This document shows positions 5,195-21,504 of a stretch of 22,010 nt of DNA, in pieces. The DNA comes from a virus. The notes beneath the pieces are model-generated. The model was given only the letters and a program-made list of their open reading frames with translations, was not told the origin of the DNA and did not search any database. A program made the translations under genes and the position numbers. The DNA lies in IMG/VR virus record IMGVR_UViG_3300009132_000046, positions 1 through 22,010 of that record. One strand, given 5' to 3'. Position 1 is the stretch's first letter, and each line of letters opens with the position of its first letter.

Positions 5195-5434
5195 ATCAGC
5201 TGCGCCAGTTCCTAATTTATTGACTTGAGCATCATTTTGATCTGAATCGCCAAACCCAAGATCAACATCTTCTTCACTAGCTTGTTCTGTTAAGTCATAA
5301 GTCTGGTGGTCAGCTTCATGTGTTTGCGATAATTCTTCAGGAGATGAGCCGCCAAACCCGTGATCTTGAGGATCTGTGCCTTCCCACGCTGAGCCCTTAC
5401 TTCCAGCCATCATTTCTTTTATATCTTCAGCCAT
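5192..5434 (-). CDS. Small acidic protein, or N-terminal fragment of the gp16-like protein
   Basis: Eighty residues, strongly acidic and rich in Gly, Ser and Gln, with a twice-repeated GFG-x-S-acidic pattern. No known domain is recognised. It starts 12 bases after the gp15-like stop, with an AAGGAAT ribosome binding site close before the ATG. Its TAA is in the same frame as the gp16-like gene downstream and the separating 35 codons look coding, so it is probably the original N-terminus of that gene. The alternative is an independent small virion protein with the start of the next gene lying in its shadow. Confidence 0.6.
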   Translation of the reverse strand: MAEDIKEMMAGSKGSAWEGTDPQDHGFGGSSPEELSQTHEADHQTYDLTEQASEEDVDLGFGDSDQNDAQVNKLGTGAAD

Positions 5435-5446
5435 GTTATTCCTTGT

Positions 5447-7057: not shown

Positions 7058-7060
7058 TCA

Positions 7061-7564: not shown

Positions 7565-7569
7565 AGTGT

Positions 7570-8034
7570 TTAATTCCTTTTAATATCGAATGGAAAGAAC
7601 AAGACATTTTTAAATTTGACTCGTTTATCTTTATGAATAGTAAAGCCAAGATGTTTTAACCATCGTTGACTGAGTACGTTTTTAGCACTCACATAGTTAT
7701 ATAAGTGCTTACGTTTACCAAACAACTTGTCTAAGTAGTCTGGCGTTTCTTTAACAAATCTTCGTTTGTACGTAGTGAAGAACTCTTGAGAGCTTAGCAT
7801 CCAAGGAATACCAGATTCCTCATCAACTATTGTCACGCCAAACAAAGCTATACAACCTAAGTCATCATCATAAATACAATAGGATTCACTAGATATTTCA
7901 AGACAAGTAATTAATATTTCTTCAATTGATTTATCTGGGTGAACCACGGTCACTTCCTCGATCTCATGAGGTCTCAACCGTGGTGCTAATTGTTTACAAT
8001 GTTCATTAGTTGGTTCAATTACATTTACTCCCAT
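7570..8034 (-). CDS. T7 gp13-like internal virion protein (GNAT fold)
   Basis: A 154-residue protein whose C-terminal part reads YNYVSAKNVLSQRWLKHLGF, close to the WNYV-x(n)-RFLK-x-x-GA pattern of T7 gp13. That pattern is the CoA-binding end of an acetyltransferase-like (GNAT) fold. The T7 protein is needed for correct virion assembly and no acetyltransferase activity is established for it. The position between gp12-like and gp14-like genes agrees. Eight bases separate it from the upstream gene. A genuine acetyltransferase acting on virion proteins cannot be excluded but is not indicated. Confidence 0.82.
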   Translation of the reverse strand: MGVNVIEPTNEHCKQLAPRLRPHEIEEVTVVHPDKSIEEILITCLEISSESYCIYDDDLGCIALFGVTIVDEESGIPWMLSSQEFFTTYKRRFVKETPDYLDKLFGKRKHLYNYVSAKNVLSQRWLKHLGFTIHKDKRVKFKNVLFFPFDIKRN

Positions 8035-8042
8035 ATATTCCC

Positions 8043-10088
8043 TTAATATGTCATGTGTTTCGAATGAGTAACTGACAATGCTTCATACTCACCGCCTTGA
8101 ATTGACACTGGGAACATTGAATCACTCGTGATTGTTATTTCTGTTTTCTCTCCATCACCTTGTATCGGAAAACGAAAGTTTCCTCTGGATATAGTCGCTT
8201 CACCAATAACTAAAGTTTCATCACCAAGTGTTGGGTTTAATACGTATTCATAGATAGTATCGGTAGCTTTAAAGTTAACTTGAACCTTAAAGAAACCTGA
8301 ATCATCGTAGAATAAGTGCATATTCTTAAGATTAAGCTTATAGTGAGGCACAGAGAGCTTTTGGCTATCTTTATAATAGATAGGGCTTAAAGTATATTTA
8401 AACGTGTAAGGACGTCCTATATAGACTTTACCTTCAGTCCAATCGCCTATCACAGATACTTCGGTACTAGATCTTGTTGTTAGATTTAATGTACCACCAA
8501 CACGACCTTCAAAGTCTGCACTAAGCACACCTTGCCATGTTGATCCTGTCTTGATAGGGTAACCAATATCAAACACAGTTATACCATTCGCCTCATCAAA
8601 CGTACCTGTAAGAGATTGTTTCTCATCTAGGTGAACCATGAACCCTAGGTCTCCTTCAGTTAACTTATAACTAAAGTCCATGTAGTTTAAGTAAGTACCG
8701 TCAGGTCTTCTAATAACTATATATAATCTATTATCAATAAAGTCTGCACTTAATATTGTATCTTCAGGAGACAATAAGAATTTAGACCATGAGCTTTGCA
8801 CTTTTTCATCAGGACTTGCCCAGTAATACCTATATACAAATAGAGCACTGCGCTCTTCTGTTGATAAAGCAATAATAGTATCTTCAATATCTGATGAAGC
8901 TAACTTATATACACCTGTTGGAACGTAGTTAGGACAATGAGCTGTTACATCTGCTGCATCATTGTTATACGTTAATGGTTGTACTTCATATTCTTTGATA
9001 CCTGTATGGTTGCCCATTGGCACACCAAAGTATAAACTTGTACCTGCTGACACAGGTTTAGCATCTGGTTCAATAGTAAACTCAGTAGTAGCATTGATCG
9101 CTGTTGTCTTCGGAGTTAAGGTATCTTTAGCTGTTAATTGGAACTGAGCTTGGTCAGCAAACAACATAAGAGAAGTATTATAAGAAGTAGCATGTTTTAA
9201 AGTAGCTACACTTGTATGAGATACTGCTACATCAATAGGGTCTGAATCTAATATATTAGTTACAGTCTCAGGAAAGAAGTTAAAGAAGTCACCAGCTCGT
9301 GAAAATATAACATTCTCATCTGCTAAGAATCCTAGTCTATTCCTGTGAAAGAATACATCTGCTATTAATCTATCAACAAAAGAAGGGAATGGTGCTGATA
9401 AGTCATCACCTACAAACCTGTTTTCCCAATCAATTTGTTTAAAATCAAAAGTACCATCACCATTATCTATTAATGCATGAGGCATAGTAGAGTTATCAAA
9501 GTCAATCTTTTGTCCTGGCTTAGTTGTTTCTCTCCAAACATCGCCTACTTTCTTAACATAGTAGTTATCAAAGTTTGAAGTATCATCACCAACTACCTCA
9601 TATATAGTTCCTTCAGCTGCATCATCAGGTAGATCAATAAAGTTTTGTACAGTGCCTGCTATTGAACCTGAGGCGTCTGTGCTTCCTTGTCTTACTCGTT
9701 TAGTTTTATTAACTACAAATGTATAGTCAGCTACAGTTACTGTTGAGAACTGTGTGCGTGCATTAGTAACACTTAAATAATCTTTACCATTTGGAAAGTT
9801 TACTGTTTGCTCATTGCCTTGTAGGTCATAAACATGTACGTCATCGTTTTTAAATATAGTTATATATCGACTTTGTTTATCTCTATTAATTAAATGAACA
9901 TGCGTATTGTCTTCTGTATCCGTTGATAGCTTTGCAATATGATTTGTTGGAGGTCTCTTTCTTAAACCGTCTACAACACTTGATAAACCATTCTCTTGAG
10001 TTTGAGCTTGGGAAGGTAAGCGTAGTGCAGGAGGCTGCTGCGAAACCCCGTTATACATATTTGGGATACTACGGTTAATCATGCCCAT
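8043..10088 (-). CDS. Tail tubular protein B (T7 gp12-like nozzle)
   Basis: A 681-residue protein forming the distal tube or nozzle of the short tail. The N-terminus carries the family signature: SIPNMYNGVSQQPPALRLP, followed by a Gln/Glu/Asn segment and a GLRKRPP box, matching the ISQQP and GLQKRPP motifs of T7 gp12 (794 residues). The rest is beta-rich, as expected for the propeller-like nozzle. It begins three bases after tail tubular protein A. An in-frame ATG two codons later could also serve as start. Confidence 0.95.
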   Translation of the reverse strand: MGMINRSIPNMYNGVSQQPPALRLPSQAQTQENGLSSVVDGLRKRPPTNHIAKLSTDTEDNTHVHLINRDKQSRYITIFKNDDVHVYDLQGNEQTVNFPNGKDYLSVTNARTQFSTVTVADYTFVVNKTKRVRQGSTDASGSIAGTVQNFIDLPDDAAEGTIYEVVGDDTSNFDNYYVKKVGDVWRETTKPGQKIDFDNSTMPHALIDNGDGTFDFKQIDWENRFVGDDLSAPFPSFVDRLIADVFFHRNRLGFLADENVIFSRAGDFFNFFPETVTNILDSDPIDVAVSHTSVATLKHATSYNTSLMLFADQAQFQLTAKDTLTPKTTAINATTEFTIEPDAKPVSAGTSLYFGVPMGNHTGIKEYEVQPLTYNNDAADVTAHCPNYVPTGVYKLASSDIEDTIIALSTEERSALFVYRYYWASPDEKVQSSWSKFLLSPEDTILSADFIDNRLYIVIRRPDGTYLNYMDFSYKLTEGDLGFMVHLDEKQSLTGTFDEANGITVFDIGYPIKTGSTWQGVLSADFEGRVGGTLNLTTRSSTEVSVIGDWTEGKVYIGRPYTFKYTLSPIYYKDSQKLSVPHYKLNLKNMHLFYDDSGFFKVQVNFKATDTIYEYVLNPTLGDETLVIGEATISRGNFRFPIQGDGEKTEITITSDSMFPVSIQGGEYEALSVTHSKHMTY

Positions 10089-10091
10089 TGT

Positions 10092-10682
10092 TTACCACCT
10101 ATTTAATGTTTGAAAGACTGGATTACTATCCGCTAGGTTGTACTCACTTGTCATAGCGTCATAATCTTCTAGTTGTGCTTTAGCTTCTAATTCTTCTTGT
10201 TGAGAAAACTTAGAGGTATAATCATCTGGTAACATTCTTAATTGAAATTTGCGAGCAGCTTTAATTGCTATAAGTTGTTTAGCTGGCTGCGGTAACTTAT
10301 CCCATTCTAAGAAAAATGTTACGCTTGCTGTTAACGGCTTTTCAAATTTATAACTATGATCTAAACCGTTATATAACTTATTACCGCGTGGCGTAGCATT
10401 AAGTTTCCAAAACTCTGGGTCTGGTGCTACAAATAGTGCGTTTTCTGGCAGCGGTATTTCTTTCTCTGCAGTTAATGCAAGCGGGTAGTTCTTATCAGTA
10501 TTAAAATAATATTGATAACTTTGTACTTCGCGTGAAGTATCGAATAGCATTTGTTTTGCTACTGACACATTTAAGTCTTTTGAATCCTCAATAGAAGAAA
10601 CTGGAGCGACCGATATTGTTCCGAGCATTATGTTAATAGCCTCGATCTCGGAGAGGCTCGTCATTGTAAATGGGGTTGCCAT
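10092..10682 (-). CDS. Tail tubular protein A (T7 gp11-like gatekeeper)
   Basis: A 196-residue protein, the same length as T7 gp11, which forms the ring joining portal to nozzle. The N-terminus has the typical helix pattern LSEIEAINIMLGTISVAPVSSIED, given here as two parts (LSEIEAINIMLG and TISVAPVSSIED), followed by an FDTSREVQSYQYYFNTD segment. The AAG GAA ribosome binding site precedes the ATG and lies just after the capsid hairpin. Its neighbours are capsid upstream and nozzle downstream, as in T7. Confidence 0.93.
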   Translation of the reverse strand: MATPFTMTSLSEIEAINIMLGTISVAPVSSIEDSKDLNVSVAKQMLFDTSREVQSYQYYFNTDKNYPLALTAEKEIPLPENALFVAPDPEFWKLNATPRGNKLYNGLDHSYKFEKPLTASVTFFLEWDKLPQPAKQLIAIKAARKFQLRMLPDDYTSKFSQQEELEAKAQLEDYDAMTSEYNLADSNPVFQTLNRW

Positions 10683-10705
10683 ATTAAGTTCCTTTTAGTG
10701 AGGAA

Positions 10706-10721
10706 CCTCCCCGAAGGGAGG
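10706..10721 (-). terminator. Hairpin with UUCG tetraloop after the capsid gene
   Basis: On the minus strand CCTCCC-TTCG-GGGAGG forms a perfect six-base-pair stem closed by a very stable UUCG loop, eleven bases past the capsid stop. Only TT follows, so it is a weak classical terminator. It may act as a partial terminator, like T7 T-phi after gene 10, or as a 3' mRNA stabiliser. Two GAGGAACC direct repeats (10700-10707 and 10718-10725) overlap it. Confidence 0.65.
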
Positions 10722-10731
10722 AACCAAGTTG

Positions 10732-11658
10732 TTACGCTGAAGCTAATTCAACAGCTGCCTCTGGTCTAAGCACACCATGGCCTACCGCGTACTTCGCTAC
10801 CATTAGTGTCCCTTGACGTCGAATGTCATATTCACTTTCGGCCGCAAGATCCATTAACTTAACTGTGCCACATGAACCTTTATGAGCTACTAAGCCGACT
10901 GTAGTTGAGAAGTCACCTTTGTATGCATCAGGTCCTGTAGTTACGTTAGTTTGTGGAATTGAATTAGTTTTGATGATAGGTAGTCCTGCAATTTTCAGGA
11001 TTGTACCTTCTGAGATTGAACCTTTACCATCATACCACTGATTAATTACAGTTGTATTTTGAGCTAGTAAGTAATACTGAGCTGGTAGGAAGAATGCATT
11101 TCTGTCATTCTCTGGAACATTCTTTTCATCTAGTGTTTGTTGAGCATCAAATAAACCTGCTGCTAGAACTGCTGAGTCAGTTGGATAGTCTGCATTAGTT
11201 AATGTAGTACCACCAGCTTGGCCAGTAATAGTAGAAGATTCGCGTGCTGTAAGAGCCATTACTTGTGCAATGTTCTCATCCATTTTCTTAGCTAGTTGGA
11301 AACCAATTTCGCTTGAATATGTAGAACGTACATCATAGTGGTTCATAGCTTCATCAATGTTAGCAATGAATGTAGATGATGTAAGTAGGTCGTCGATAGT
11401 TATTACTCTCTCAGCGTGATTGATTTCATCACCTAAGATTTCAGTACCTGGCGTATGGTATCCAGTTGTTGCAATACCTGTTGCAGGGAATTGTGCCGAC
11501 TTCCCGCTAGCAATTGTTCTTACGGTTGTTTTGTCTAAAAAGACATTGTGTTGTTGGAATGTAGCTAGAACTTCACCGGCAAAGACTTTAAGAAAGAGGG
11601 CTTTCTTGTCGCTTGCACCGTTGATAGACCCTAGTCTACTTGGATTTGCATCACTCAT
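10732..11658 (-). CDS. Major capsid protein (T7 gp10A-like, HK97 fold)
   Basis: A 308-residue shell protein, somewhat shorter than T7 gp10A (345). Family-typical elements are an N-terminal SDKKALFLKVFAGEVLATFQ helix, a TGYHTPGTEI segment, an RVITIDDLLTSSTFI box, a QLAKKMDENIAQ spine helix and a C-terminal YDIRRQGTLMVAKYAVGHG segment. The ATG is preceded by AAAGGAA at good spacing. The 435-base leader upstream contains a PqqA-like gene and hairpins. No slippery site or C-terminal extension like the T7 10B frameshift product was recognised; the gene is followed directly by a hairpin. Confidence 0.95.
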   Translation of the reverse strand: MSDANPSRLGSINGASDKKALFLKVFAGEVLATFQQHNVFLDKTTVRTIASGKSAQFPATGIATTGYHTPGTEILGDEINHAERVITIDDLLTSSTFIANIDEAMNHYDVRSTYSSEIGFQLAKKMDENIAQVMALTARESSTITGQAGGTTLTNADYPTDSAVLAAGLFDAQQTLDEKNVPENDRNAFFLPAQYYLLAQNTTVINQWYDGKGSISEGTILKIAGLPIIKTNSIPQTNVTTGPDAYKGDFSTTVGLVAHKGSCGTVKLMDLAAESEYDIRRQGTLMVAKYAVGHGVLRPEAAVELASA

Positions 11659-11676
11659 TTGTTTATTTCCTTTGTA

Positions 11677-11724
11677 TTAAATTATAAGATTAGTTACCAT
11701 CTCACATTTAAATACCCTTTTCAC
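11677..11724 (-). CDS. Possible 15-codon leader ORF before the capsid gene
   Basis: A GTG-initiated frame encoding MKRVFKCEMVTNLII starts nine bases after a perfect AGGAGG ribosome binding site and ends 18 bases before the capsid ATG. The same AGGAGG lies in a small CCTCC/GGAGG hairpin. The overlapping ATG in another frame is followed at once by TGA. It is too short to judge coding character; it may be a leader peptide or mere chance next to a strong ribosome site. Confidence 0.2.
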   Translation of the reverse strand: MKRVFKCEMVTNLII

Positions 11725-11733
11725 ATAGTTATT

Positions 11734-11745
11734 CCTCCTCGGAGG
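11734..11745 (-). promoter_or_regulatory. Strong Shine-Dalgarno inside a small hairpin
   Basis: The minus strand reads CCTCCGAGGAGG, in which AGGAGG, the strongest ribosome site in the window, can pair with CCTC just before it. It precedes the tiny leader frame at 11724. It could modulate ribosome loading or mRNA stability upstream of capsid; function is not shown. Confidence 0.35.
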
Positions 11746-11759
11746 GCTAAGTTAATCAT

Positions 11760-11783
11760 TTGATTTATAGTGAAAATCCCCCT
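11760..11783 (-). promoter_or_regulatory. Candidate phage RNA polymerase promoter for the capsid transcript
   Basis: The minus strand has TTTTCACTATAAATC; TCACTATA equals the core of T7-type phage promoters (T7 has CTCACTATAGGG). It lies about 110 bases before the capsid ATG, where T7 has phi10. The usual GGG start is replaced by AAT, and I found no second copy in the window, so this is only a candidate. Confidence 0.35.
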
Positions 11784-11814
11784 AAGAAGGGGTGATGCGC
11801 CTGTTTGCTAGGCG
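11779..11814 (-). terminator. Two short hairpins between the PqqA-like gene and capsid
   Basis: Read on the minus strand, CGCCT...AGGCG (11798-11802 with 11810-11814) is followed by CCCCT-TCTT-AGGGG (11779-11792) and then GATTTTC. The second is a compact GC stem with a short U-run, resembling a weak intrinsic terminator or an RNA processing structure. It would separate the PqqA-like message from capsid, directly before the TCACTATA promoter candidate. Confidence 0.45.
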
Positions 11815-11853
11815 ACTTTTGTTGATAAGGCATTGCCAAATCTAAACCTTTAC

Positions 11854-11934
11854 TTAGCGGTTGCAAACATACATTGTGACCTCAAAGCCAAAACGCATTT
11901 CGGTTACTTGAGGTTGTGTCCAGTGAGTTTTCAT
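11854..11934 (-). CDS. pqqA: PqqA-like peptide: precursor of the redox cofactor PQQ
   Basis: A 26-residue peptide. PqqA is the ribosomal substrate from which pyrroloquinoline quinone is made: the radical-SAM enzyme PqqE, with PqqD as chaperone, joins a Glu to a Tyr of the peptide, and later steps excise the fused pair. Here W5-T6-x-P8 near the N-terminus, R14-F-G-F-E18-V-T-M-Y22 in the core and C24-N25-R26 at the end follow the PqqA pattern (W-x-K/Q-P, then R-x-G-x-E-V-T-x-Y, ending NR), including the required E-x-x-x-Y spacing. Length fits PqqA (about 23-30 residues). AAAGGA lies nine bases before the ATG. It lies between scaffold and capsid on the same strand as all other genes. No pqqB-F genes are in the window, so host enzymes would have to process it. 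Identification is by motif from memory; activity is untested. Confidence 0.88.
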   Translation of the reverse strand: MKTHWTQPQVTEMRFGFEVTMYVCNR

Positions 11935-12093
11935 ATTATTGAATCCTTTACAGTTAATTATAAGAATCCAGTTCAATAGAGAGCTACGCAAGTCTATCTT
12001 GAGGTATATGCCACTAAAAAGCGGACATGCCTAGGCGAGAGGATGCCTAGGACTTTTTATCTAAAAGAGGTAGAGGGAGAAGCTACCAGTCTC
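11935..12093 (-). promoter_or_regulatory. Leader of the PqqA-like gene / scaffold 3' region
   Basis: No gene seen. Besides the hairpin at 12030-12051, a TATAAT hexamer lies at 11957-11962, but no -35 box stands at normal distance (TTGAAC is only eight bases upstream), so a host promoter is doubtful. AGTCTC and GAGACT flank the scaffold stop as an inverted repeat. The region may carry a phage promoter or processing site for late messages. Confidence 0.3.
12016..12058. terminator. Hairpin after the scaffold gene, possibly bidirectional
   Basis: CCTAGGC (12030-12036) and GCCTAGG (12045-12051) form a perfect seven-base-pair stem with an eight-base loop. An A-run (12016-12020) and a T-run (12054-12058) flank it, so the transcript ends in U's in both directions. 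The plus-strand version has the shorter stem-to-U distance (two bases). On the minus strand eight bases intervene. It may stop or process transcripts leaving the scaffold gene, or block antisense transcription. An ATGCCTAGG direct repeat is part of it. Confidence 0.5.
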
Positions 12094-12906
12094 TTAGATA
12101 TTTGAGACTGCTAGTTTTGCTGCTACTTGTGCTCTAAATGCCGAATCAGTTTGATATTCAGGTTTCTGCATATCTGCTAACATTTGAGCTCTTGATTCAT
12201 AACCAGAACCTTTAGTAGCTGAACCTTTACCCATTACTAATTGCTGGCCAGAACCTGAGTCACCAGTATATTGAGCATATAGTCCTCTGATTGCCAACTC
12301 TCTCGTGGTTTGATCTGGAGAATTAACAGCAGTATTATAACTTTGTAATGCTTCTGGACTCAGGTTGGCCTTAGCGTACTCTGACATTGCTTGATAGTTT
12401 TCTTTACCACCAGTAATTCCAAAGGCGTGCTCTTGTGCCTGAGCAACCAAAGCTTGTTGGCCTGCAATATATTTATCTACAGTGCCTCTATCTATACCTG
12501 CTTTTTCTAAAGCTTCATAAGACTTATCTGTTAATCCTTGGTTCTCATCATACTCAGCACTAAGTTGTGCCATATCTAAACCAGCTGTCTCAACAGCTTC
12601 ATTAGCTGTTTGTTCTACTGGTTTATCTGTTTCTTCTGCTTTAACATCCTTATTACCTTGCGATTGTTTCTTTTCCAACTCAGTATAAGACTTTGCCAAT
12701 GCATCATAATTTACCTCACCAGTCTCTGCATTATAGAATTTATCAGGTATGCCTTCTGGCTTTGCTGGTATTTCTACATTCTCTTGTATTGCTGGGTCGT
12801 CTGGTAATTTGTTAGCTTCATCAACTAACTTTGTCATTGCTTCATCGTGTCCTTCAGGTGTTTCTACCTGTTCAGACTTATACTGTACTTCATTTAAATC
12901 TGCCAT
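12094..12906 (-). CDS. Capsid assembly (scaffolding) protein, T7 gp9-like
   Basis: A 270-residue very acidic, helical protein between portal and capsid genes, as T7 gp9 (307 residues). It would guide capsid shell assembly and leave the prohead before DNA packaging. The first 110 residues are Glu/Asp/Lys/Pro-rich and low-complexity. A central NAETGEVNYDALAKSYTELE segment resembles scaffold proteins of related podoviruses, and the C-terminal helix QMLADMQKPEYQTDSAFR would bind capsid. A GGGAG ribosome site precedes the ATG. Confidence 0.88.
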   Translation of the reverse strand: MADLNEVQYKSEQVETPEGHDEAMTKLVDEANKLPDDPAIQENVEIPAKPEGIPDKFYNAETGEVNYDALAKSYTELEKKQSQGNKDVKAEETDKPVEQTANEAVETAGLDMAQLSAEYDENQGLTDKSYEALEKAGIDRGTVDKYIAGQQALVAQAQEHAFGITGGKENYQAMSEYAKANLSPEALQSYNTAVNSPDQTTRELAIRGLYAQYTGDSGSGQQLVMGKGSATKGSGYESRAQMLADMQKPEYQTDSAFRAQVAAKLAVSNI

Positions 12907-12929
12907 TCTAAATAGCTCCCTTATTTAAT

Positions 12930-13061
12930 TTATCTATCAATTCGTTTAGTACCTTTCTTTAACTCAGCTGGGTCTTTCTTAACTTTCTTAGCTGGTTTCT
13001 TTGGTTTAACGAGTTCTTCTTTAACTTCTTCTGCTTCTGGTTCTACATAGTCTTGCTTCAT
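12930..13061 (-). CDS. Small charged protein between portal and scaffold
   Basis: A 43-residue frame starting with an ATGA overlap on the portal stop, which implies translational coupling. The N-terminal half is acidic (EPEAEEVKEE) and the C-terminal half is strongly basic (KPKKPAKKVKKD, then LKKGTKRIDR). The charge segregation suggests binding to nucleic acid or to the acidic scaffold. I do not recognise the family. It ends 23 bases before the scaffold start. The tight overlap and biased composition support a real gene; its role is unknown. Confidence 0.7.
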   Translation of the reverse strand: MKQDYVEPEAEEVKEELVKPKKPAKKVKKDPAELKKGTKRIDR

Positions 13062-14701
13062 TGCATTTGTTCCTCTTGTTGTAATTGTTCTTGTGCACCT
13101 AGTTCTTGCTCTTGCATAATTTGATCTGACGCAATTTGTTCACCTTGCATCTGTTGGTCCATCATGCCCTTAACAGCATTAGGCGCTGCAGCTTGTCCCA
13201 TCTGCATCATCTGTTGTTGCTGTTGCATTTGTTGTGCTTCTTGTTGCTCTTGTTGTAATTGCTCACTTGTCTTAACTAAATCAGTATCATCAATTGATAA
13301 AGCAGCTGCTCTACGTTTAATATACTCATCTACATTAATATACTTAGCTAATACTTCTGGTCCTAAGACAGCTAAGCTCTGTGTAAACATATCTAGTTTA
13401 TTCATATCTGCGGTTCTTCCTAAGGCCTCAACACCTGTAGTAATTACAGGGTCAACCATGCCTTTAGGTAGTGCAGGTATCTTTGATTCTTTTTGCATTC
13501 GTTGCATCATCAACTTAGCAAACGGTAACTGGAACTCAGCACCAAGCACAGAGTAAACTCCGCCTAGCGTATCTTCAAGTTCATTAGCTACATATCTAAT
13601 CTCTTCAGCTGTAACTCTTTCAGCTTGTCTTGTAACTGCTGAGTTAAGCATAAAAGCAAATGATAATCTTTCAGTAATAGTATTAGCAGTTTGAAGCGCT
13701 ACACTAAAGTCTGAACCTTTCTCAACTTTAAATGCTGATACATCTTGAGCATTGCCTTCAACTACCGCTAGGTTTGAAGCTTCAGCAATTGTGCGTTTCC
13801 TAGTTGTACCATTTGGTGATACAAATATAAGTAGCTTAGCCGCAGCGGCACTACCTTCTACAATAGCTTTAGTTAAACCTTCAAGTGACTTAAGGTCACC
13901 TAAGTATTCTTCTACATATGAACGGCCATAAGACTCTCCATCAACTACAATAAGTCTTAAAGCTAAGAATGGACACTTATCTTTTGCATAACTAGACTTG
14001 GTTGACTCAATGATCTGACCTTCGATCTCTTGTTCAACGTCCCATTTCTTAGTTTCACCATTCCATTTAACGTGAGTATGCACGGTAATGTCTTCTGTTT
14101 TCTCAGGGAGTTCAAGCTCTGCCTTGACCTTGTCGGGTAATGTATCAGGCGAAAGATGTTCTTTAGTAACAATATGAAGAACATTACCTATTGCATCTCT
14201 GTCTACTACATATCTTTGTATTGGATATACTTTTAAAGTGTTCTCACCAGGAGGAAAGTATAGTAGAGCATTACCACCTATAATAAGATGTTTCAATGCT
14301 TCAAATACTTTAACTCTAATCTGACTTGAATTAACTTCTTTTAATACTCTATTCTCTATTTCTACTAAAGCTTTCTCTGCATCACCTCTAGCAGCACCAA
14401 GCTCATCTAATATTTTATTATCAACAGATAATCTAAAGAAAGATTGGTTAGCTGGTAGTAAAGCTAATAACAATTTACTTGCTATGTTGTTTACACCTCT
14501 AGCTCCAACACCTTGGTAAGGAGTAGGAAAGCGATGAGCACCATGTGAGTTTGCATTTGTGTCGTTATACCAAGGTATTAATGTTGGTATAGTTAACTCA
14601 GAGCAATCTCTAGCTCTGTGTAAGAATGGTGAGCGCACTGTCTCTAAGCTTTCGTAAAGCCCTTTAACAGTTGAGCCTTCATACTTTCCTGATTCTTCCA
14701 T
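13058..14701 (-). CDS. Portal (head-tail connector) protein, T7 gp8-like
   Basis: A 547-residue protein close in length to T7 gp8 (536), which forms the twelve-subunit ring for DNA packaging and tail attachment. Typical elements are the N-terminal YESLETVRSPFLHRARDCSE helix, an LTIPTLIP segment, a GARGVNNIASKLLLALLPAN box followed by FFRLSVD, and the VTAEEIRYVANELEDTLGGV helix. The last 70 residues are extremely rich in Gln and Met. Its stop overlaps the start of the 43-residue gene; the 67-residue gene lies 11 bases upstream. Confidence 0.95.
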   Translation of the reverse strand: MEESGKYEGSTVKGLYESLETVRSPFLHRARDCSELTIPTLIPWYNDTNANSHGAHRFPTPYQGVGARGVNNIASKLLLALLPANQSFFRLSVDNKILDELGAARGDAEKALVEIENRVLKEVNSSQIRVKVFEALKHLIIGGNALLYFPPGENTLKVYPIQRYVVDRDAIGNVLHIVTKEHLSPDTLPDKVKAELELPEKTEDITVHTHVKWNGETKKWDVEQEIEGQIIESTKSSYAKDKCPFLALRLIVVDGESYGRSYVEEYLGDLKSLEGLTKAIVEGSAAAAKLLIFVSPNGTTRKRTIAEASNLAVVEGNAQDVSAFKVEKGSDFSVALQTANTITERLSFAFMLNSAVTRQAERVTAEEIRYVANELEDTLGGVYSVLGAEFQLPFAKLMMQRMQKESKIPALPKGMVDPVITTGVEALGRTADMNKLDMFTQSLAVLGPEVLAKYINVDEYIKRRAAALSIDDTDLVKTSEQLQQEQQEAQQMQQQQQMMQMGQAAAPNAVKGMMDQQMQGEQIASDQIMQEQELGAQEQLQQEEQMQ

Positions 14702-14712
14702 AGGTTATATCC

Positions 14713-14916
14713 TTATACGGGTATTGATAGCCCAGTATCATGGGTCTTTAGTTTATCTTTGCCTGACTTACTGATATTGTCAGCAGTCATTGACATGTCA
14801 TCTAATTCAGAACCTGGGTTAAATACTGGTTCCGGATTCTCTATTTCTTCCGCTGCAATTGGTGCAGGAGGCGGAGCTACTTTAGGTGGCTTAGGAGCCA
14901 GCATTGAAGTACACAT
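14713..14916 (-). CDS. Small proline-rich protein upstream of portal, possibly T7 gp7.3-like
   Basis: Sixty-seven residues: an N-terminal MCTSMLAPKPPKVAPPPAP segment, an acidic middle, and a C-terminal SGKDKLKTHDTGLSIPV. The end resembles the Gly/Lys/Ser-rich tail with terminal hydrophobic residues of T7 gp7.3, a virion protein needed for tail function, and the position before the portal gene agrees. Similarity is weak, so the function is tentative. It starts one base after the stop of the previous gene. Met5 is an alternative start. Confidence 0.65.
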   Translation of the reverse strand: MCTSMLAPKPPKVAPPPAPIAAEEIENPEPVFNPGSELDDMSMTADNISKSGKDKLKTHDTGLSIPV

Positions 14917-14917
14917 T

Positions 14918-15124
14918 TTAGGGTTCCTTGTTTTGATTTAATATTTGTGGAAGCTCGTGGTCTTCCTCGTTTTGTTTCATTGATGCAAGTAACATATCTA
15001 CGACCGATCTTTGGCCAGCATTAAACCATATAGCCCTCTCTGTTTCTTCTAAATGAGGGTGTCTATTTGGTATTTGCTTGTCTAAATCGTCTATAAGATC
15101 TGCACTTAACTGTTTGATTTTCAT
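14918..15124 (-). CDS. Conserved small phage protein of unknown function
   Basis: Sixty-eight residues, helical and soluble, with a pattern DDLDKQIPNRHPHLEETERAI (two overlapping halves: DDLDKQIPNRHP and LEETERAIWFNAGQRS). The PNR/D-x(n)-ER-x-IW-x-x-AGQR-x-V layout is one I associate with small proteins found between metabolic and head genes in marine T7-like phages, but no function is known to me. An AGGAATATTATC element lies before the ATG. It lies between the ribonucleotide reductase and the proline-rich gene in the same operon. Confidence 0.7.
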   Translation of the reverse strand: MKIKQLSADLIDDLDKQIPNRHPHLEETERAIWFNAGQRSVVDMLLASMKQNEEDHELPQILNQNKEP

Positions 15125-15149: not shown

Positions 15150-17096
15150 TTACTTTACGGGGCATGCACCGCCCTCGCACTCTTGGTTTTCTATCTCACC
15201 TTTTGAGTCTTCTTCATCTAAAATAATAGGCTGAAGTTTGCTTACATACTCTTCATATACCTCTTTACTTACAACTTCTTGAGGTAGATATAGGTATCCT
15301 AGGTCTTCAGCAGACTTAGTTGGATCTGCTCTAAATAGGAATGAAACTCCTACATAAATATCCCAGTTATCTAGTAACCAGTCTATAATCTCAGGTACTT
15401 CTTCAGGTGAATAACTAACGGTACAACTTACATTTTGCTGACAGTAATTAGTTTGTATAAGTTTGTATCTGTCTAACTGAGTTACAGCTGATTCAACATT
15501 AACTTCTAACCCATTTACAGTATCAAACTTTACTGTATCCCATTTAACAGGGAAGCGTACTAATGTGCCTTCAGGATCGTTTGGATTCTCAAACACATGG
15601 TAACCAGCCGCTCTGCACTTAGCTAATAATGGATCATGAGCACCAAAGTTAACATTATTAAATACATATTTACCTAGAGGTTTATGTACTCCTTCGGTTG
15701 TATCCATTATCTTAGATAACGTTCCACTCGGTTTAACTGTAGTTACATTTTTAGGACGTGGTAACCCAAGTTCATCAGCCATTGCGTAAGCGCCGTGAGT
15801 TGCTGCGCGCTGCAAACTTTGGTACTCGTAAGAGTCCATGTCCGGTCTGGTCGCGATACCCGTAATTCCGACTCCACAGAGTCTGAGAAAACTGTTATTA
15901 AGATGCCACGCTTCTTGCAGTACGCCGTCAAGTAATGAGACACAGGTTTGTCTGTAGTTGGCTCTTGCAGCAATGTATATAGCTCTTTCCAATCCTGTGG
16001 TATTTCCTTTAAATTTTCCAATGTCTATCTCCACTAAATTACAGAAGGATTTATTACCTAGTAATATCTCAGCGCAAGGGTTACATCCTTTAAACCATGG
16101 GGCTCTAGCTGTTGCAGATGCTTGATTAATAAAACCAGGTTCACTACCACCTGAGTCAACCATGAGCTTAAAGATATTCTCTAGCTCTGCTTTAGTTGGC
16201 TTTGCTTTAAATAGTAATGAGTTATTTGATTGGGCTCGTTGCATATTCCCTTCCCAGAAGTTACGCTTTGCTACCGCAAACTCTTCCCATTCTGGTTCGT
16301 CATATGAGAACAAGGCAATCTCTGCTGATCTGCGTGAAGATAGAATAGTACCTAGCCAGTTAACTATATCTAATATATCCATACGAGATAGTAGTGATCC
16401 AGCTCTTCTATTCATTATCTTGCAAATAGCTACATATGCTTTAGCAATGGCAGTATCACCAGAGCTAATCCAACCGTAGCCTTTTAATCGCTCACCAGCT
16501 GGTCGTATTTGAGAGAAGTCTAAGATGATCTTCTTAGCTGGATGTTTCATAGCTAGTAACTTACCTATAGACTTAGCCCAAGCTTCAGCTGAGTCTCCAA
16601 CCTGCATGTACCATGTTTTAGTTTTGTTATTCCAATCTTCTTTGTTATTCTCTTCACCACCCGTCTTAGTTCTTTCAGAATTAATAACCTCTATTGTAGG
16701 AACCTTTTGAGTAAACCCGTTAAGCGTACCTACTATTGGTCGGAAACCGACACCGCAGCCTTGCATAAGTAACCAAAGAACATCAACAACATCTTGCACA
16801 CTCTCAACATGTGTGAATGCGCAATTAAATTGTGAAGCTTCTCTCTTTTTAGCTGTGTCAGTACCTCCTAGCCATAAAGTTCTACCTGAAGTAGATACCT
16901 TTCTGGTCAGCATTAGATCTCTAAGCTCTTCTAATTCTGCTTCATCAGGCGTACCTTCTCTTTTCCATAGCCACCTTTGGTGGTCAATGACTCTACCTAC
17001 TGTTTCTTCCCAGCTTTCGAAGCCTTCTTTTTTGGGACGTTGGTATGTTCTTCTTGCTATTAGTTGAGCTCTTAGACTCGGTGGTGTGTTGTTCAT
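15150..17096 (-). CDS. nrdJ: Class II (B12-dependent) ribonucleotide reductase, monomeric type
   Basis: Converts ribonucleoside triphosphates to deoxy forms using adenosylcobalamin, supplying dNTPs for phage replication. Numbered from the chosen ATG (648 residues): QFNCAF carries C92 of the active-site redox pair, MQGCGVGFRP follows, NPCAE carries radical C341 and E343, and SFC carries the partner C352. A TTVKPSGTLS box and a C-terminal CEGGACPVK swinging arm with two cysteines complete the set. It resembles the Lactobacillus-type monomeric enzyme. The ATG at 17096 has AAGGAAG directly upstream; a longer frame from 17138 lacks a ribosome site and adds 14 unlikely residues. The first about 100 bases overlap the preceding small gene in another frame. 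Common in marine phages; needs host cobalamin. Confidence 0.93.
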   Translation of the reverse strand: MNNTPPSLRAQLIARRTYQRPKKEGFESWEETVGRVIDHQRWLWKREGTPDEAELEELRDLMLTRKVSTSGRTLWLGGTDTAKKREASQFNCAFTHVESVQDVVDVLWLLMQGCGVGFRPIVGTLNGFTQKVPTIEVINSERTKTGGEENNKEDWNNKTKTWYMQVGDSAEAWAKSIGKLLAMKHPAKKIILDFSQIRPAGERLKGYGWISSGDTAIAKAYVAICKIMNRRAGSLLSRMDILDIVNWLGTILSSRRSAEIALFSYDEPEWEEFAVAKRNFWEGNMQRAQSNNSLLFKAKPTKAELENIFKLMVDSGGSEPGFINQASATARAPWFKGCNPCAEILLGNKSFCNLVEIDIGKFKGNTTGLERAIYIAARANYRQTCVSLLDGVLQEAWHLNNSFLRLCGVGITGIATRPDMDSYEYQSLQRAATHGAYAMADELGLPRPKNVTTVKPSGTLSKIMDTTEGVHKPLGKYVFNNVNFGAHDPLLAKCRAAGYHVFENPNDPEGTLVRFPVKWDTVKFDTVNGLEVNVESAVTQLDRYKLIQTNYCQQNVSCTVSYSPEEVPEIIDWLLDNWDIYVGVSFLFRADPTKSAEDLGYLYLPQEVVSKEVYEEYVSKLQPIILDEEDSKGEIENQECEGGACPVK

Positions 17097-17199
17097 TGTC
17101 TTCCTTATTATTATTAAATATGCGGTCCCAGTTATCATGAAGCCGCTGGTCTGTGACTAAGCTTGGTCGGCGCTTACTGCCTTTTCCTCCATCGCTCAT
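16993..17199 (-). CDS. Conserved small phage protein (GGKGSKRRP ... WDRIF type)
   Basis: Sixty-eight residues, basic and mostly disordered after residue 30. The N-terminus MSDGGKGSKRRP and the NWDRIF element at about residues 23-28 match a small protein family often seen in phages near nucleotide-metabolism genes; its function is unknown. The start forms an ATGA overlap with the 69-residue gene upstream. It overlaps the ribonucleotide reductase start by about 104 bases in a different frame, so both frames are constrained there. Its real end could be this long basic tail, or the tail may have grown by overprinting. Confidence 0.78.
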   Translation of the reverse strand: MSDGGKGSKRRPSLVTDQRLHDNWDRIFNNNKEDNEQHTTESKSSTNSKKNIPTSQKRRLRKLGRNSR

Positions 17200-17405
17200 T
17201 TAATGGTCCTAACTAATTCAAAGTTTTCTGGTAGATATAAGTAGTCTTCATGCAAACATCTATATCCTGTCCAGTTATCTTTCATTGAATATTCATTCTC
17301 AGCCCATTCAACTGCAGCTGTGCATGAACTAAAGTTACCCGCATATACTTCGTGCTCTATATGTAGGTCTCCTATAAAACTTACTAGTAATACATACTCA
17401 AACAT
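17196..17405 (-). CDS. Small phage protein of unknown function
   Basis: Sixty-nine residues beginning with a hydrophobic MFEYVLLVSFIG strand, then AGNFSSCTAAVEWAENEY and a C-terminal GYRCLHEDYLYLPENF. Two cysteines (C28 and C50) and many aromatic residues suggest a compact alpha/beta fold. I do not recognise a named family. Both ends overlap neighbours: TAATG with the hydroxymethylase stop and ATGA with the next gene, so it belongs to the same translationally coupled set. Confidence 0.72.
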   Translation of the reverse strand: MFEYVLLVSFIGDLHIEHEVYAGNFSSCTAAVEWAENEYSMKDNWTGYRCLHEDYLYLPENFELVRTIK

Positions 17406-18070
17406 TATTTATTTAACTCCTTAAAGTGTTGTTCATAGACGTGCAAGCTACCTACGTTCCAGTGAATATCTCCAGGAATAATTTGGAATCTGTAGAATAA
17501 ACTTAAGCTTGAAACTAATTTATCGAGTACAAACTTTTGCCAGGCATAGTCATTGTTATAACCAAACACAGCATCGTTAGATCTCATGTTTACAATGGCG
17601 TGTAGTTGGTTATCTCTATATAGATACTGCACACTGTTAGTACACATAAAGTCATTCTTACCTTCACTGTTGTAGTCATAGTGCATGCTTGGTCGGGTAT
17701 AAATCATTACAGCCCGACGACTATGTATATCTGAAATTAAGGTATCTAATACATTGTCATACTGATCGTGATTCTCTTTAGAATAGATACACCAACCGTA
17801 GTTAGAATTAATGTAACCATTGTCTGACGCAACATCTTTCCATATCTTTGGTACGGTACCTTCAATAGAATTAACATTAAGACTTTGTGATCGATACCAC
17901 TTGAGCTCTCGTCTAACATAGTCTTCGTTAGGTGCTCTGAGTAAGTAAGGCCTATCTGCTATAAAGTTAGCATTAATTATTTCTACTACCTTACCTCCAA
18001 GCTTATCGTTAACAAACTTCTCTTCTTGGTACAGCTTAGTTAACTTGTTGACTATCCCTTGTGTGTTCAT
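17405..18070 (-). CDS. dCMP hydroxymethylase, T4 gp42-like
   Basis: A 221-residue member of the thymidylate synthase superfamily that closely follows T4 gp42, which turns dCMP into 5-hydroxymethyl-dCMP with methylene-tetrahydrofolate. Shared blocks, from memory of T4: RRELKWYRSQSL, PKIWKDVAS, NSNYGW, SRRAVMIYTRPSM, FMCTNSVQYL, NMRSNDAVFG, NDYAWQKFVLDKLV and WNVGSLHVY. Key residues keep a constant five-residue offset to T4: E55 (T4 E60), catalytic C143 (T4 C148) and D174 (T4 D179). The Asp at the last place, instead of the Asn of thymidylate synthase, selects dCMP over dUMP. The C-terminus is about 20 residues shorter than T4's. It overlaps its upstream neighbour by four bases and its downstream neighbour by one. 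Confidence 0.92.
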   Translation of the reverse strand: MNTQGIVNKLTKLYQEEKFVNDKLGGKVVEIINANFIADRPYLLRAPNEDYVRRELKWYRSQSLNVNSIEGTVPKIWKDVASDNGYINSNYGWCIYSKENHDQYDNVLDTLISDIHSRRAVMIYTRPSMHYDYNSEGKNDFMCTNSVQYLYRDNQLHAIVNMRSNDAVFGYNNDYAWQKFVLDKLVSSLSLFYRFQIIPGDIHWNVGSLHVYEQHFKELNK

Positions 18071-18396: not shown

Positions 18397-18773
18397 TACT
18401 CTGCTCCTATCACTTCACTAAAATCAGGTGCTACCCAACCTCTAGGTTTTTTAACTCCTAGTTTGTGCGTTTCATCTGGCACTGTTTCTTTACTCATGTT
18501 GGCTTTATGAACTTCATTCCAGCAAGCATGCCAATCTTCTTCAGTAATACCCATCATGTTTGCCGTGCCCATAACTATGTAAGTTAAATCTATTAGTGCA
18601 TCAACCTGACCATGTAAGTCTTTATCATTGTGTGCTTGCATAAGCTCATCTACTTCTTCTTGCATATGTGCTACACGATGCTTCATTAACTTAGTAGCTA
18701 ATCTGCTAGGCCTATCAGCTCTGTGTATCTTTAACTTCTTAAGGAAGTCATTTGTATCTGTATAATTACTCAT
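18396..18773 (-). CDS. MazG-like / phosphoribosyl-ATP-pyrophosphohydrolase-like NTP pyrophosphatase
   Basis: A 125-residue all-alpha NTP pyrophosphatase. The helix MQEEVDELMQA gives the metal-binding E39-E40-x-x-E43 cluster, and VDALIDLTYIVMG gives D58-x-x-x-D62. A KKPRGWVAPDFSEV tail is common in phage members. Such enzymes hydrolyse (d)NTPs to monophosphates. Next to a dCMP hydroxymethylase it could remove dCTP and feed dCMP, a job done in T4 by gp56, another all-alpha enzyme; the substrate here is inferred, not shown. The start overlaps the exonuclease end by eight bases. Confidence 0.82.
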   Translation of the reverse strand: MSNYTDTNDFLKKLKIHRADRPSRLATKLMKHRVAHMQEEVDELMQAHNDKDLHGQVDALIDLTYIVMGTANMMGITEEDWHACWNEVHKANMSKETVPDETHKLGVKKPRGWVAPDFSEVIGAE

Positions 18774-19551
18774 TGTTTATCCTCTCGGTTGGCTGCCAAG
18801 GAGTAACTTCTTTAGTATCAAAGTTATAGTTATCTGCTTGGAGAATTCGTGACACTTGGCCTTGAACTATTGCATCATCTTCTGTTAAGCCTTTAGCTTC
18901 ATAAGCTTCTACAATTGCCTGCCATTCATTACCTTTGTTGTTAGCCAAGATCTTCTCAGCTTTTATTGGCCCTATGCCTGGGCAACCTTTATATCCATCG
19001 GTAGTATCACCAGTTAATATTTGTAGATAGTGAAAGTAATCACCATCTTCTTTTGTTATAAGTCTTGCTTTAGTACTTTTGTCAGGGTTGTAGTACCACC
19101 CCGGTATTTGTGTTAAGTCTTTATCTATTGATATAATTATTTTCTTATCTTCTTTAGGTAAATAATCACCAGTAGAAAGAATGCCTAGTACATCATCTGC
19201 CTCAAGATCTGGTTCTATCTTGGTCGGATAGTTTGCAGCTAGATAATCTTTAATAGAATTTAATAACAGAGGTCTTACAACCGACTTGCGATTGAACTTA
19301 TATGTCTCTAAAATTTTCTTCCTGAAATTATTTTGGCCTGACAAACAGATAACTACGTGATCGAGGCTTAATAGATTAACTAATCTAGCTACCTGATAAT
19401 CGGCCTGTGCTTGCGCACCTTCTAAACTCATTGCATACTGTGATGGTTCTTCACCAGGTTCCCATGTGATTCTAGTCTCGTTAACTGCAGCAACCTCGTA
19501 TGCAACTATGTCTGCGTCTATCAGACCGATCGTTTGTTTTCTTTTAGCCAT
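18766..19551 (-). CDS. 5'-3' exonuclease, T7 gp6-like (FEN family)
   Basis: A 261-residue nuclease for primer removal, host DNA degradation and recombination. The acidic two-metal site is visible: D12 and D14 (GLIDADIVAYE), E117, D119 and D120 (LEADDVLG), D143 and D145 (SIDKDL), D182 and D185 (LTGDTTDGY). A helix-3-turn-helix DNA-binding motif follows (KGCPGIGPIKAEKIL, residues 188-202). Position after the polymerase matches T7 gene 6. The ATG has an AGGA ribosome site and overlaps the end of the 105-codon gene by 31 bases. Confidence 0.93.
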   Translation of the reverse strand: MAKRKQTIGLIDADIVAYEVAAVNETRITWEPGEEPSQYAMSLEGAQAQADYQVARLVNLLSLDHVVICLSGQNNFRKKILETYKFNRKSVVRPLLLNSIKDYLAANYPTKIEPDLEADDVLGILSTGDYLPKEDKKIIISIDKDLTQIPGWYYNPDKSTKARLITKEDGDYFHYLQILTGDTTDGYKGCPGIGPIKAEKILANNKGNEWQAIVEAYEAKGLTEDDAIVQGQVSRILQADNYNFDTKEVTPWQPTERINNE

Positions 19552-19838
19552 GCTAGTCCTCTCTCAGTAATCAGCCAACGATCCCAATAGGAATCTGACC
19601 CTATACCTTTAGTTGTGATGTAACCTTCTGAAGCAGCGAGTGCTACTACAAAAGGATTGTCTCTAAACATTTGTGATTGAAGCCACAGACCTTTAACCCA
19701 AGCTTCTGTTAAAATCTTAGTGAGTGTCGCTCCAATTCCTTCCGTCTTTAAACTCACCCGTAATTGGGCATTTGATTTCGAAGTATTCTCCGGCTCTTTT
19801 AAAGCAGTCAACGGCAAGTCTTCCGATTTTTCCTTCAT
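19521..19838 (-). CDS. Small protein with possible winged-helix fold; start uncertain
   Basis: An open frame of 105 codons between polymerase and exonuclease. The first 122 bases overlap the polymerase 3' end. From about residue 39 the sequence looks like one small domain: a helix (TKILTEAWVKGLWLQSQ), a second helix (NPFVVALAASEG), and a wing-like strand pair ending WLITERGLAWLKEN. This resembles a winged helix-turn-helix. GAGGA stands nine bases before the first ATG, but it lies within polymerase coding sequence and may be fortuitous. The next in-frame ATG (19670) would cut into the domain. A non-ATG start near the polymerase stop is possible. It could bind DNA as a regulator; no family is recognised. 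Confidence 0.6.
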   Translation of the reverse strand: MKEKSEDLPLTALKEPENTSKSNAQLRVSLKTEGIGATLTKILTEAWVKGLWLQSQMFRDNPFVVALAASEGYITTKGIGSDSYWDRWLITERGLAWLKENKRSV

Positions 19839-21504
19839 CTATATTTTCCTCATATTGAATTTGAAACTCATCGTGAATCCACAGTAGTAGTTGAACTCTG
19901 TCCTGCAGGTTGTGTTCTTTGAGTTTGTTGTTGAATAGGACTAAAGCCTTTTTAGCTATCAAAGCTCCGGCTGATTGTAGTAATACATTAAGTGCTCCGT
20001 GTTCTGATCGAACAGGTAACTCCCGTTTATCTAGTCCTGGTAAATAGCCGTGCTTGTTTGAATAATCAATACAGCCATCAATTAATTTCTTTAATGCTGG
20101 TATGCTTTTGAAGAACTTAGCTTTTAACTTAGCTCCGTCACTAGCAGAACCACCAATTACTTCACCTATCTTATTTGCGCCAGCTCCATAGATTAATGAA
20201 TATATAAATCGCTTGGCTTGATTTCTATCATCGAGTCCAGCAGCTCGTTGGTTATAGGTATGAATGTCACCGTCACATATCTGTCTGGTGTATTTGCCCT
20301 CATCAAATTGGCTAAGATAATGTGCAAGGCAACGCAACTCGAGTCCGGACAGATCAGCTCCACAAAGTTTGTACCCTGGTTCAGCACGGAAAAGTTCTCT
20401 ACACTCAGCTCCATAGCTTGCGCTGATTGCTGGAACCTGTGCCAAATTGGGGAATGCGTGTGAAGCTCGTCCGGTAACTGTGCCATTTGTATTAATAAAT
20501 CCATGTATCTTTTGGTCCTTCTTTAAATGGTTTAACCACGCTTGTTCTCCTTCTGCGAGCTGACCGAGTCTCTTGGAGATTGTAAGATACTCACCTATCA
20601 GCTTCGCTTCAGGATAGGGTAAGGCATTGATAATAGATTCATCGACTTTAGGTTGTCCACTGGGTGTGAAGTCTCTTGGCTCCCATTTATACAGTGCTAT
20701 TAACCTGTTAGCGATATGCTGTCTTGAACCTGGATTGAAGATAATAGTTTTCTTCTTAATGAATGGCTCACCCTTAACACGACCTGTCTTTTTGTTATTA
20801 ACCTTAGATATGACAGGTGGTTCTTCTACTACCCAAGGTTCAAATGTATTCTGTAGTTCTGTTTCTAGTTCTAACTTCTTAATCATCAACTCTTTCTGTA
20901 ACTCCAAAGCTTTGGGTTCATCAAAGTAAATACCTTGTTTCTGCATTTGTGTTGTTACAAGGGCTACTTCGTGTTCGAGTGTGATTGCTTCTTGAGAATA
21001 ATTTTTCTCATCAAAATGTTTTAGTAGTGCTGTAGTAACCTTACAATCCTGTATGCAGTAGTTGTGCATTTCAAGATTCCATTCTTGTCTGTTCTCTTCG
21101 AGCGTCATATCATAGTCGCCCTTAGGAAACCCAAGTCTTTGGCCCCAAGCTTTTAGTGAATGTGATCGGTATAGCTTTGCATCTAGTTTCTTCTGTGCAA
21201 TTAGCTTACCGTCCATGGTTGTTATGTCTGAATGAATAAGACGAGATAGTATTAATGTATCTACAATCTGTTCATCTTTTACTTTGAAATCTGGGTATAG
21301 CTTTTGTATAGCTGGTATATCAAAACCTATAATGTTATGACCACAGATTTTGTCTGCCTTCATTAACTTATCTAAACCCAGTTGTACGTTGTCTTCCTTA
21401 TAATCGTATACTGTGTTGTTGTTATCAGTATCTATAATGACTAAACAAAATATCCTTGTTAAATCATCTAGTAAATTGTCTGTTTCAATATCAAAAATTA
21501 GCAT
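19717..21504 (-). CDS. DNA polymerase, family A (T7 gp5-like) with 3'-5' exonuclease
   Basis: A 595-residue replicative polymerase. Exonuclease motifs: D5 and E7 (FDIETD), N57 and D62 (CGHNIIGFD), Y149 and D153 (YCIQD), all intact. Polymerase motifs: A with D384 (ADLSGLELR), B with R427, K431 and Y435 (RNQAKRFIYSLIYGAG), C with H544-D545-E546 (IHDE). Y435 corresponds to T7 Y526. A GRASHAFPNLAQVP box precedes motif A, as in T7. The protein is about 109 residues shorter than T7 gp5. About 70 of these are missing between the exonuclease and motif A, where T7 has its thioredoxin-binding loop. GAGG stands before the ATG, and the 14 first bases overlap a tiny hydrophobic frame. Confidence 0.95.
   Translation of the reverse strand: MLIFDIETDNLLDDLTRIFCLVIIDTDNNNTVYDYKEDNVQLGLDKLMKADKICGHNIIGFDIPAIQKLYPDFKVKDEQIVDTLILSRLIHSDITTMDGKLIAQKKLDAKLYRSHSLKAWGQRLGFPKGDYDMTLEENRQEWNLEMHNYCIQDCKVTTALLKHFDEKNYSQEAITLEHEVALVTTQMQKQGIYFDEPKALELQKELMIKKLELETELQNTFEPWVVEEPPVISKVNNKKTGRVKGEPFIKKKTIIFNPGSRQHIANRLIALYKWEPRDFTPSGQPKVDESIINALPYPEAKLIGEYLTISKRLGQLAEGEQAWLNHLKKDQKIHGFINTNGTVTGRASHAFPNLAQVPAISASYGAECRELFRAEPGYKLCGADLSGLELRCLAHYLSQFDEGKYTRQICDGDIHTYNQRAAGLDDRNQAKRFIYSLIYGAGANKIGEVIGGSASDGAKLKAKFFKSIPALKKLIDGCIDYSNKHGYLPGLDKRELPVRSEHGALNVLLQSAGALIAKKALVLFNNKLKEHNLQDRVQLLLWIHDEFQIQYEENIDEGKIGRLAVDCFKRAGEYFEIKCPITGEFKDGRNWSDTH

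Follow-up and report, generated by a model that had tools for sequence, protein, structure and literature searches.

Large T4-like phages are the classical carriers of hydroxymethylated cytosine. The dCMP hydroxymethylase (HMase) of T4, gp42 (PDB 1b49, 1b5e, 6a9b, 6l18), has its catalytic cysteine, glutamate, cytosine-selecting aspartate and folate-site residues in common with a protein encoded by the viral DNA analysed here (hereafter the window, a fragment of 22,010 bases; Table 1). Judged by its sequence, the window HMase is a member of the gp42 family; it would work like a part of the T4 hydroxymethylcytosine (hmC) pathway, with a different supporting set: unlike T4, the fragment shows neither gp56 nor a kinase or glucosyltransferase among the ORFs scanned. 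In the T4-like Serratia phage Muldoon, a DUF1599 gene lies directly upstream of gene 42, as in the window, but Muldoon keeps gp56, gp1 and annotated glucosyltransferases and has no MazG-like profile match. The order of the replication and structural genes is that of the Roseobacter CRP and Pelagibacter HTVC019P-type phages, of which eight isolates differ from the window in lacking an HMase; seven of these eight avoid GC-rich palindromes (observed/expected 0.08-0.58), the other being Eistla (0.92). DR2231, a MazG-like pyrophosphatase of Deinococcus radiodurans, has the fold predicted for the MazG-like enzyme of the window (E 1e-5, TM up to 0.72), with ~24% identity over the aligned residues. 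Finally, gp64 of Stenotrophomonas phage AXL_1 (vB_SmaS-AXL_1) is a natural MazG-DUF1599 fusion encoded beside a thymidylate synthase (TS)-like protein, gp63, with an aspartate at the cytosine position; the fusion, this D-type gene, a dCMP deaminase and a dihydrofolate reductase stand in a row (L171, 5491-8151). Unlike the window HMase, the TS-like protein of AXL_1 is a more distant relative, and the adjoining deaminase and reductase fit methylation better than hydroxymethylation, so that this locus may be a dCMP methyltransferase system. Set against these systems, the window locus is probably (about 0.7) a T4-type cytosine-modification cassette in a small autographivirus, operating by the whole pathway set out below.

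The window is a 22-kb piece of a CRP/HTVC019P-type autographivirus. For its head, tail and portal proteins as well as its DNA polymerase and exonuclease, the closest relatives belong to the Autographiviridae of the Roseobacter CRP and Pelagibacter HTVC019P type, which bears out the original prediction of a T7-like podovirus; compared with CRP-804, these proteins and the helicase show 31-65% identity, with the gene order kept. In these relatives, the single-subunit RNA polymerase gene sits in a region that lies beyond the ends of the fragment. The typical genome size for such phages is 40 kb, about half of which is absent here. A search for a completely sequenced close relative was unsuccessful: the exonuclease led to one locus at 35% identity, and the polymerase profile yielded nothing nearer than clade members at 41-50%. 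Two large proteins (1242 and 536 aa; 1358-5086 and 5447-7057) occupy the place of internal virion proteins and have no PHROG match. Between the HMase and reductase genes lie two small genes (69 and 68 aa; 16993-17405) whose homologues precede the reductase in L002 and L004; as these are otherwise different phage contigs, the exchange may have extended beyond the cassette.

Table 1. Annotated features of the window, with the evidence for each assignment
Feature	Size	Positions	Strand	Evidence
Window (IMG/VR record IMGVR_UViG_3300009132_000046; fragment only)	22,010 bases	1-22,010		
Portal (head-tail joining) protein		13058..14701	-	PHROG 8e-179; 45-51% identical to CRP-804, CRP-171, Eistla
Adenosylcobalamin-dependent ribonucleoside-triphosphate reductase (class II)		15150..17138	-	TIGR02505 597 bits (cut-off 340)
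dCMP 5-hydroxymethylase (T4 gp42 family)	221 aa	17405..18070	-	PDB phmmer, Pfam, residue map, tree
DUF1599 (Pfam 'nucleotide modification associated domain 1')	109 aa	18067..18396	-	Pfam E 1e-4; PHROG 3e-12
MazG-like all-alpha NTP pyrophosphohydrolase	125 aa	18396..18773	-	Pfam PRA-PH 60 bits (cut-off 21.3)
5'-3' exonuclease		18766..19551	-	Pfam 1e-11; PHROG 1e-68; overlaps MazG-like gene
Family A DNA polymerase		19717..21504	-	Pfam 2e-43; 48-49% identical to CRP-804, CRP-171, Eistla

In phmmer searches of the PDB, the HMase matched T4 deoxycytidylate hydroxymethylase (dCH; 1b49) over residues 14-217 with an E value of 6.1e-79, well ahead of the CMP hydroxymethylase MilA (3e-8) and of thymidylate synthases (1e-5); it is therefore closer to T4 dCH than to either of the other two. 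Identity with gp42 is ~55%, the Pfam Thymidylat_synt profile is matched at 55 bits, and a tblastn search of 50,697 phage records returned 984 matches, the 60 best of which are T4-like phages at 56-57% identity. The catalytic cysteine C143 corresponds to T4 C148 and the pyrimidine-selecting D174 to T4 D179, while T4 Glu60, His216 and Tyr218 have their equivalents in E55, H210 and Y212. Altogether, 27 of the 31 active-site and folate positions checked, taken from passages of PMC6400193 and PMC6841964, are identical, the four differences being M143>K, S144>N, R177>N and R220>Q (T4 numbering). Both the assignment to a T4-type dCMP hydroxymethylase and the presence of C143 and of D174 in place of the asparagine of thymidylate synthase, which had been predicted from the DNA, are thus confirmed by the alignment to gp42. 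The C-terminus stops ~20 residues short of that of gp42. This early end appears natural because it is common to homologues (three of the five aligned end similarly) and because no T4-like tail was found in the frames downstream; a frameshift or truncation was ruled out on the same grounds. In the tree, the window HMase groups with those of L007 and of the cassette carrier L004 (support 98/85), on long branches and apart from T4 gp42.

It could be argued that the enzyme is a thymidylate synthase or a dUMP hydroxymethylase giving dTMP or hm-dUMP, with the MazG-like protein as the dUTPase that feeds it and ordinary cytosine in the DNA. The protein does belong to the thymidylate synthase superfamily and its homologues are so annotated in many T4-like records; moreover, autographivirus relatives carry thymidylate synthase genes, and the closest structural match of the MazG-like model is DR2231, termed dUTP-exclusive in the title of a paper cited by PMC10014863. 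However, T4 dCH leads thymidylate synthases by more than 70 orders of magnitude in the PDB search, and the decisive residues are those of a cytosine enzyme: besides D174 in place of asparagine, the window protein keeps V80, D140 and D166, equivalent to T4 Val85, Asp145 and Asp171, which according to a passage of PMC6400193 distinguish dCH from thymidylate synthase. In addition, avoidance is lost at GC-rich and not at AT-rich palindromes (see below). We consequently regard this alternative as highly improbable, thymidylate synthase identity being ruled out by the residues. Sequence, residues and tree support membership of the gp42 family and a D-type, i.e. cytosine, specificity.

An HMase was said at the outset not to be typical of T7-like phages, and our survey agrees. 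Among 89 clade stretches (80 polymerase-anchored loci, the best 80 of 576, one further locus and eight isolates; the loci are fragments, whereas whole records were searched for the isolates), a single one, L217, has a match to the HMase profile at E<=1e-5, and this match is divergent (51 bits). No HMase was found in the whole records of the eight CRP/HTVC019P-type isolates, CRP-171, CRP-125 and Eistla included. The 'thymidylate synthase' of Alteromonas autographivirus R8W was considered as a known case and set aside, having no match to the HMase profile. Two HMase-bearing contigs, L007 and L008, carry genes resembling the single-subunit RNA polymerases of autographiviruses and a family A polymerase, so that the window has company among phages of that type. 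The open-licence literature searched yielded no paper on an HMase or hmC in podoviruses or autographiviruses.

The HMase is one member of a three-gene unit, an aspect absent from the original prediction. The MazG-like gene comes first, DUF1599 second and HMase last, in an overlapping run in which MazG-like and DUF1599 share one base and DUF1599 overlaps the HMase start by 4 bases. In the first seven viral-contig relatives, a MazG-like gene lies near the HMase in all seven and DUF1599 also in six; in L002-L004 the triple is contiguous although the genes around it are for the most part unrelated. We extended this comparison by two profile searches, retaining the best 80 of 578 HMase and the best 80 of 558 DUF1599 candidates and removing near-duplicates; since only the best 80 of the 578, 558 and (for the polymerase) 576 confirmed candidates were kept, the co-occurrence figures describe nearest relatives. 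Among the HMase-anchored loci so obtained, 45 of 51 have DUF1599 (27/29 where the flank is sufficient), and among the DUF1599-anchored loci 45 of 47 have an HMase (31/31 where the flank is sufficient). A MazG-like gene is present in 39/51 and 41/47 of these two sets of nearest relatives, respectively, and the strand is always the same. Over the 99 de-duplicated loci, again nearest relatives, the order MazG-DUF1599-HMase is found in 73, followed in 61 of the 73 by a dCMP deaminase gene, which is missing at that place from the window and from L002-L004. DUF1599 occurs in 92 of the 99 loci, and in 68 of these 92 it overlaps or abuts the HMase from upstream. The domain is far rarer than the enzyme in the phage records at large (43 matches in 50,697 versus 984 for HMase). 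It is present in Serratia phages PS2, Muldoon and SP1 and in Cronobacter phage VP8, whereas classical enteric T4-like phages are without it. Between exonuclease and reductase, CRP-171 and CRP-125 carry small ORFs (in CRP-171 a glutaredoxin) and an annotated MazG-like/nucleotide pyrophosphohydrolase gene; that of CRP-171 does not match the profile of the window MazG-like protein.

The MazG-like protein belongs to its family by both profile (PRA-PH) and fold: its AF2 model (pLDDT 89) recovered 37 DR2231 chains in Foldseek at E<=0.001. Its substrate is likely a deoxypyrimidine, as far as the model tells. Given the dUTP-exclusive character ascribed to DR2231 by that title, the window enzyme may be a dUTPase; in T4, gp56 has dCTP as well as dUTP as a substrate (record note; a passage of PMC8056088). 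Across 16 records, made up of 11 HMase-carrying contigs and the phages T4, Muldoon, AXL_1, Kolga and Schubert, the two enzymes are distributed in a complementary way: T4 and Muldoon alone have a gp56-type dCTPase, and precisely the 14 records lacking it match the MazG-like profile, with the reservation that many of these contigs are fragments, which makes single absences weak evidence. No gp56-like gene is present among the window ORFs scanned. Profile comparison detected no homology between the MazG-like family and gp56, and a MazG-type Pfam profile matches Muldoon gp56 weakly, below the cut-off. MazG-like genes are also common in phages and bacteria generally, being found in 14/14 control genomes. 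The class II reductase gene lies between the HMase gene and those for structural proteins, and its product shares 61.5% identity with the CRP-171 enzyme. Class II reductases of this type work on triphosphates, so that a step from dCTP to dCMP would be needed ahead of the HMase; the pyrophosphohydrolase encoded nearby is thus a sensible partner.

The second gene of the unit is DUF1599. Its Pfam score (23.1 bits) is just under the curated cut-off of 25, and it is homologous to a wider phage family. Foldseek searches with its AF2 model (pLDDT 94) gave human and mouse dCTPase as the top eight rows, weakly (E 0.7-1.6), and the VIA-align Z score (6.6) does not exceed that of unrelated helical proteins. 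Profile comparison with MazG gave no homology, and the DUF1599 profile matched the PDB at chance level only. DUF1599 is probably a dedicated partner of the HMase, and possibly a second, divergent fold of the NTP-pyrophosphatase kind.

As originally noted, the window contains no hm-dCMP kinase and no glycosyltransferase among the main ORFs scanned of this 22,010-base fragment. In the 16 records mentioned above, a gp1/DNMK-type kinase occurs in two, the same two that have gp56, a thymidylate kinase in none, and neighbourhood clustering of the relatives disclosed no recurrent kinase family. In the clade mate L217 (2792-4511), a TS-family protein, a small P-loop kinase and a MazG-like protein are encoded in overlapping or adjacent frames; the TS-family protein has an aspartate at the cytosine position and MilA as its nearest PDB relative, and the kinase that the window lacks may be of the kind seen in this module. 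TET-associated glycosyltransferases (TAGT) are present in 4/16 records, and in L005 (6825-8186) a dCMP deaminase and then a TAGT lie downstream of the HMase. Other glycosyltransferase-like families, named by eye except TAGT, recur near the HMase in relatives. These observations are relevant to a reading in which hm-dCMP is made but cytosine is replaced partly, or in which hmC is a precursor for a group added by enzymes encoded off the fragment, as in glycosyl-hmC. Such a reading is a real possibility, somewhat short of even odds: it is favoured by the recurrence of these families, by the absence of half of a typical 40-kb genome and by the two-G/C palindromes of the window, which are still partly avoided (0.79), while it is disfavoured by the lack of a glycosyltransferase among the window ORFs scanned and, as judged by eye, in L004, the nearest cassette.

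Modification of cytosine should ease the selection that acts against GC-rich restriction sites. We therefore compared observed and expected counts of six-base palindromes with at least four G/C, using a maximum-order Markov expectation; this test was picked after a first look at four measures in ten sequences and was then widened, loci below 8 kb being dropped and L217 removed from the 57-member HMase-less control. The window has 63 such palindromes for 69 expected (0.91), whereas the 57 HMase-less clade loci (>=8 kb) have a pooled ratio of 0.38 and a median of 0.34, with Eistla alone (0.92) at or above the window. The ratio for four-G/C palindromes is 0.90 in the window versus 0.51 in nine clade loci whose GC content is similar, and the signal of the window extends beyond the cassette, the ratio at positions 1-15100 being 0.86. 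Relaxation is partial in the window at two-G/C palindromes, where the ratio is close to that of GC-matched clade mates (0.79 versus 0.77), and four-base palindromes give a weaker contrast than six-base ones. Matched non-palindromes stay near 1 in 12/12 sequences tested (0.97-1.05). The 81 HMase-positive loci, window included, have a pooled ratio of 0.99; as they are mostly T4-like and the HMase-negative set is T7-like, comparisons were made within the clade and within the T4-like phages. Among the latter, those with HMase do not avoid GC-rich palindromes (T4 0.96, RB69 1.02, Muldoon 1.04), in contrast to those without (RB49 0.30, RB43 0.36, S-PM2 0.69, P-SSM4 0.60). RB69, whose hydroxymethylase matches the profile weakly (48 bits), was scored as positive from its annotation and a passage of PMC6024577, while RB43 and RB49 can transduce canonical DNA and are without known modification genes according to a passage of PMC8056088. 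In L217, GC-rich palindromes are not avoided (1.01) and AT-rich ones are still depleted (0.61); in AXL_1, the GC-rich ratio is 0.98 and the two-G/C ratio 0.55.

The link between palindromes and modification is correlational. The same signal could reflect a host devoid of restriction systems rather than DNA modification, with an HMase that is perhaps recent or idle, as the Pelagibacter phage Eistla (L010) might suggest, being relaxed with no HMase in its whole record. Yet among the 57 HMase-less clade loci none but Eistla reaches the window, HTVC019P from the same Pelagibacter host strain is at 0.08, and within one host species, E. coli, RB69 and T4 part from RB49 and RB43 according to their HMase. 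This explanation is in our opinion unlikely, and another modification or a different host history are possible reasons for the behaviour of Eistla. The suggestion that cytosine is modified in the window genome, made originally from the HMase gene, thus gains support from two sides, the conserved MazG-like/DUF1599 cassette and the lost avoidance of GC-rich palindromes.

The preferred reading, a T4-type cytosine-modification cassette, can be laid out as a pathway. The class II reductase would, from its family, convert CTP to dCTP, which the MazG-like enzyme, in the job of T4 gp56, may hydrolyse to dCMP (perhaps also dUTP to dUMP). The HMase would then hydroxymethylate dCMP at C5 with methylene-tetrahydrofolate as the donor, a reaction strongly indicated by ~55% identity and by the preserved active site. 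A kinase from the host, or encoded beyond the 22-kb fragment, would bring hm-dCMP to the triphosphate, and the family A polymerase of the phage, having to use the modified triphosphate, would put hmC into the DNA. Cytosine-containing restriction sites should be protected in the resulting genome, in keeping with the relaxation observed at GC-rich palindromes. Against this pathway stand the lack of an hm-dCMP kinase among the window ORFs scanned and the scarcity of gp1-type kinases (2/16 records), the possible dUTPase nature of the MazG-like enzyme, its lack of profile homology to gp56 and its ubiquity in the control genomes, as well as the relaxed palindromes of the HMase-less Eistla and the residual avoidance of two-G/C palindromes in the window. 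A bolder proposal, which we put forward tentatively and with more doubt than confidence, is that MazG-DUF1599-HMase is a mobile, self-contained cytosine-modification unit. MazG would stand in for gp56, DUF1599 would be an obligate partner of the HMase (e.g. binding or channelling dCTP/hm-dCMP), and at least one small T7-like lineage would have a largely hmC genome with neither a T4-type kinase nor a glucosyltransferase, the lost avoidance of GC-rich palindromes being a readout available from sequence only.

To conclude, a compact cassette in an autographivirus of the 40-kb class makes a minimal gene set for base replacement testable, and it offers a concrete biochemical context for DUF1599. 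Besides, the avoidance of GC-rich palindromes, or its loss, is suggested as a way to guess from sequence data which uncultured phages may contain modified cytosine.
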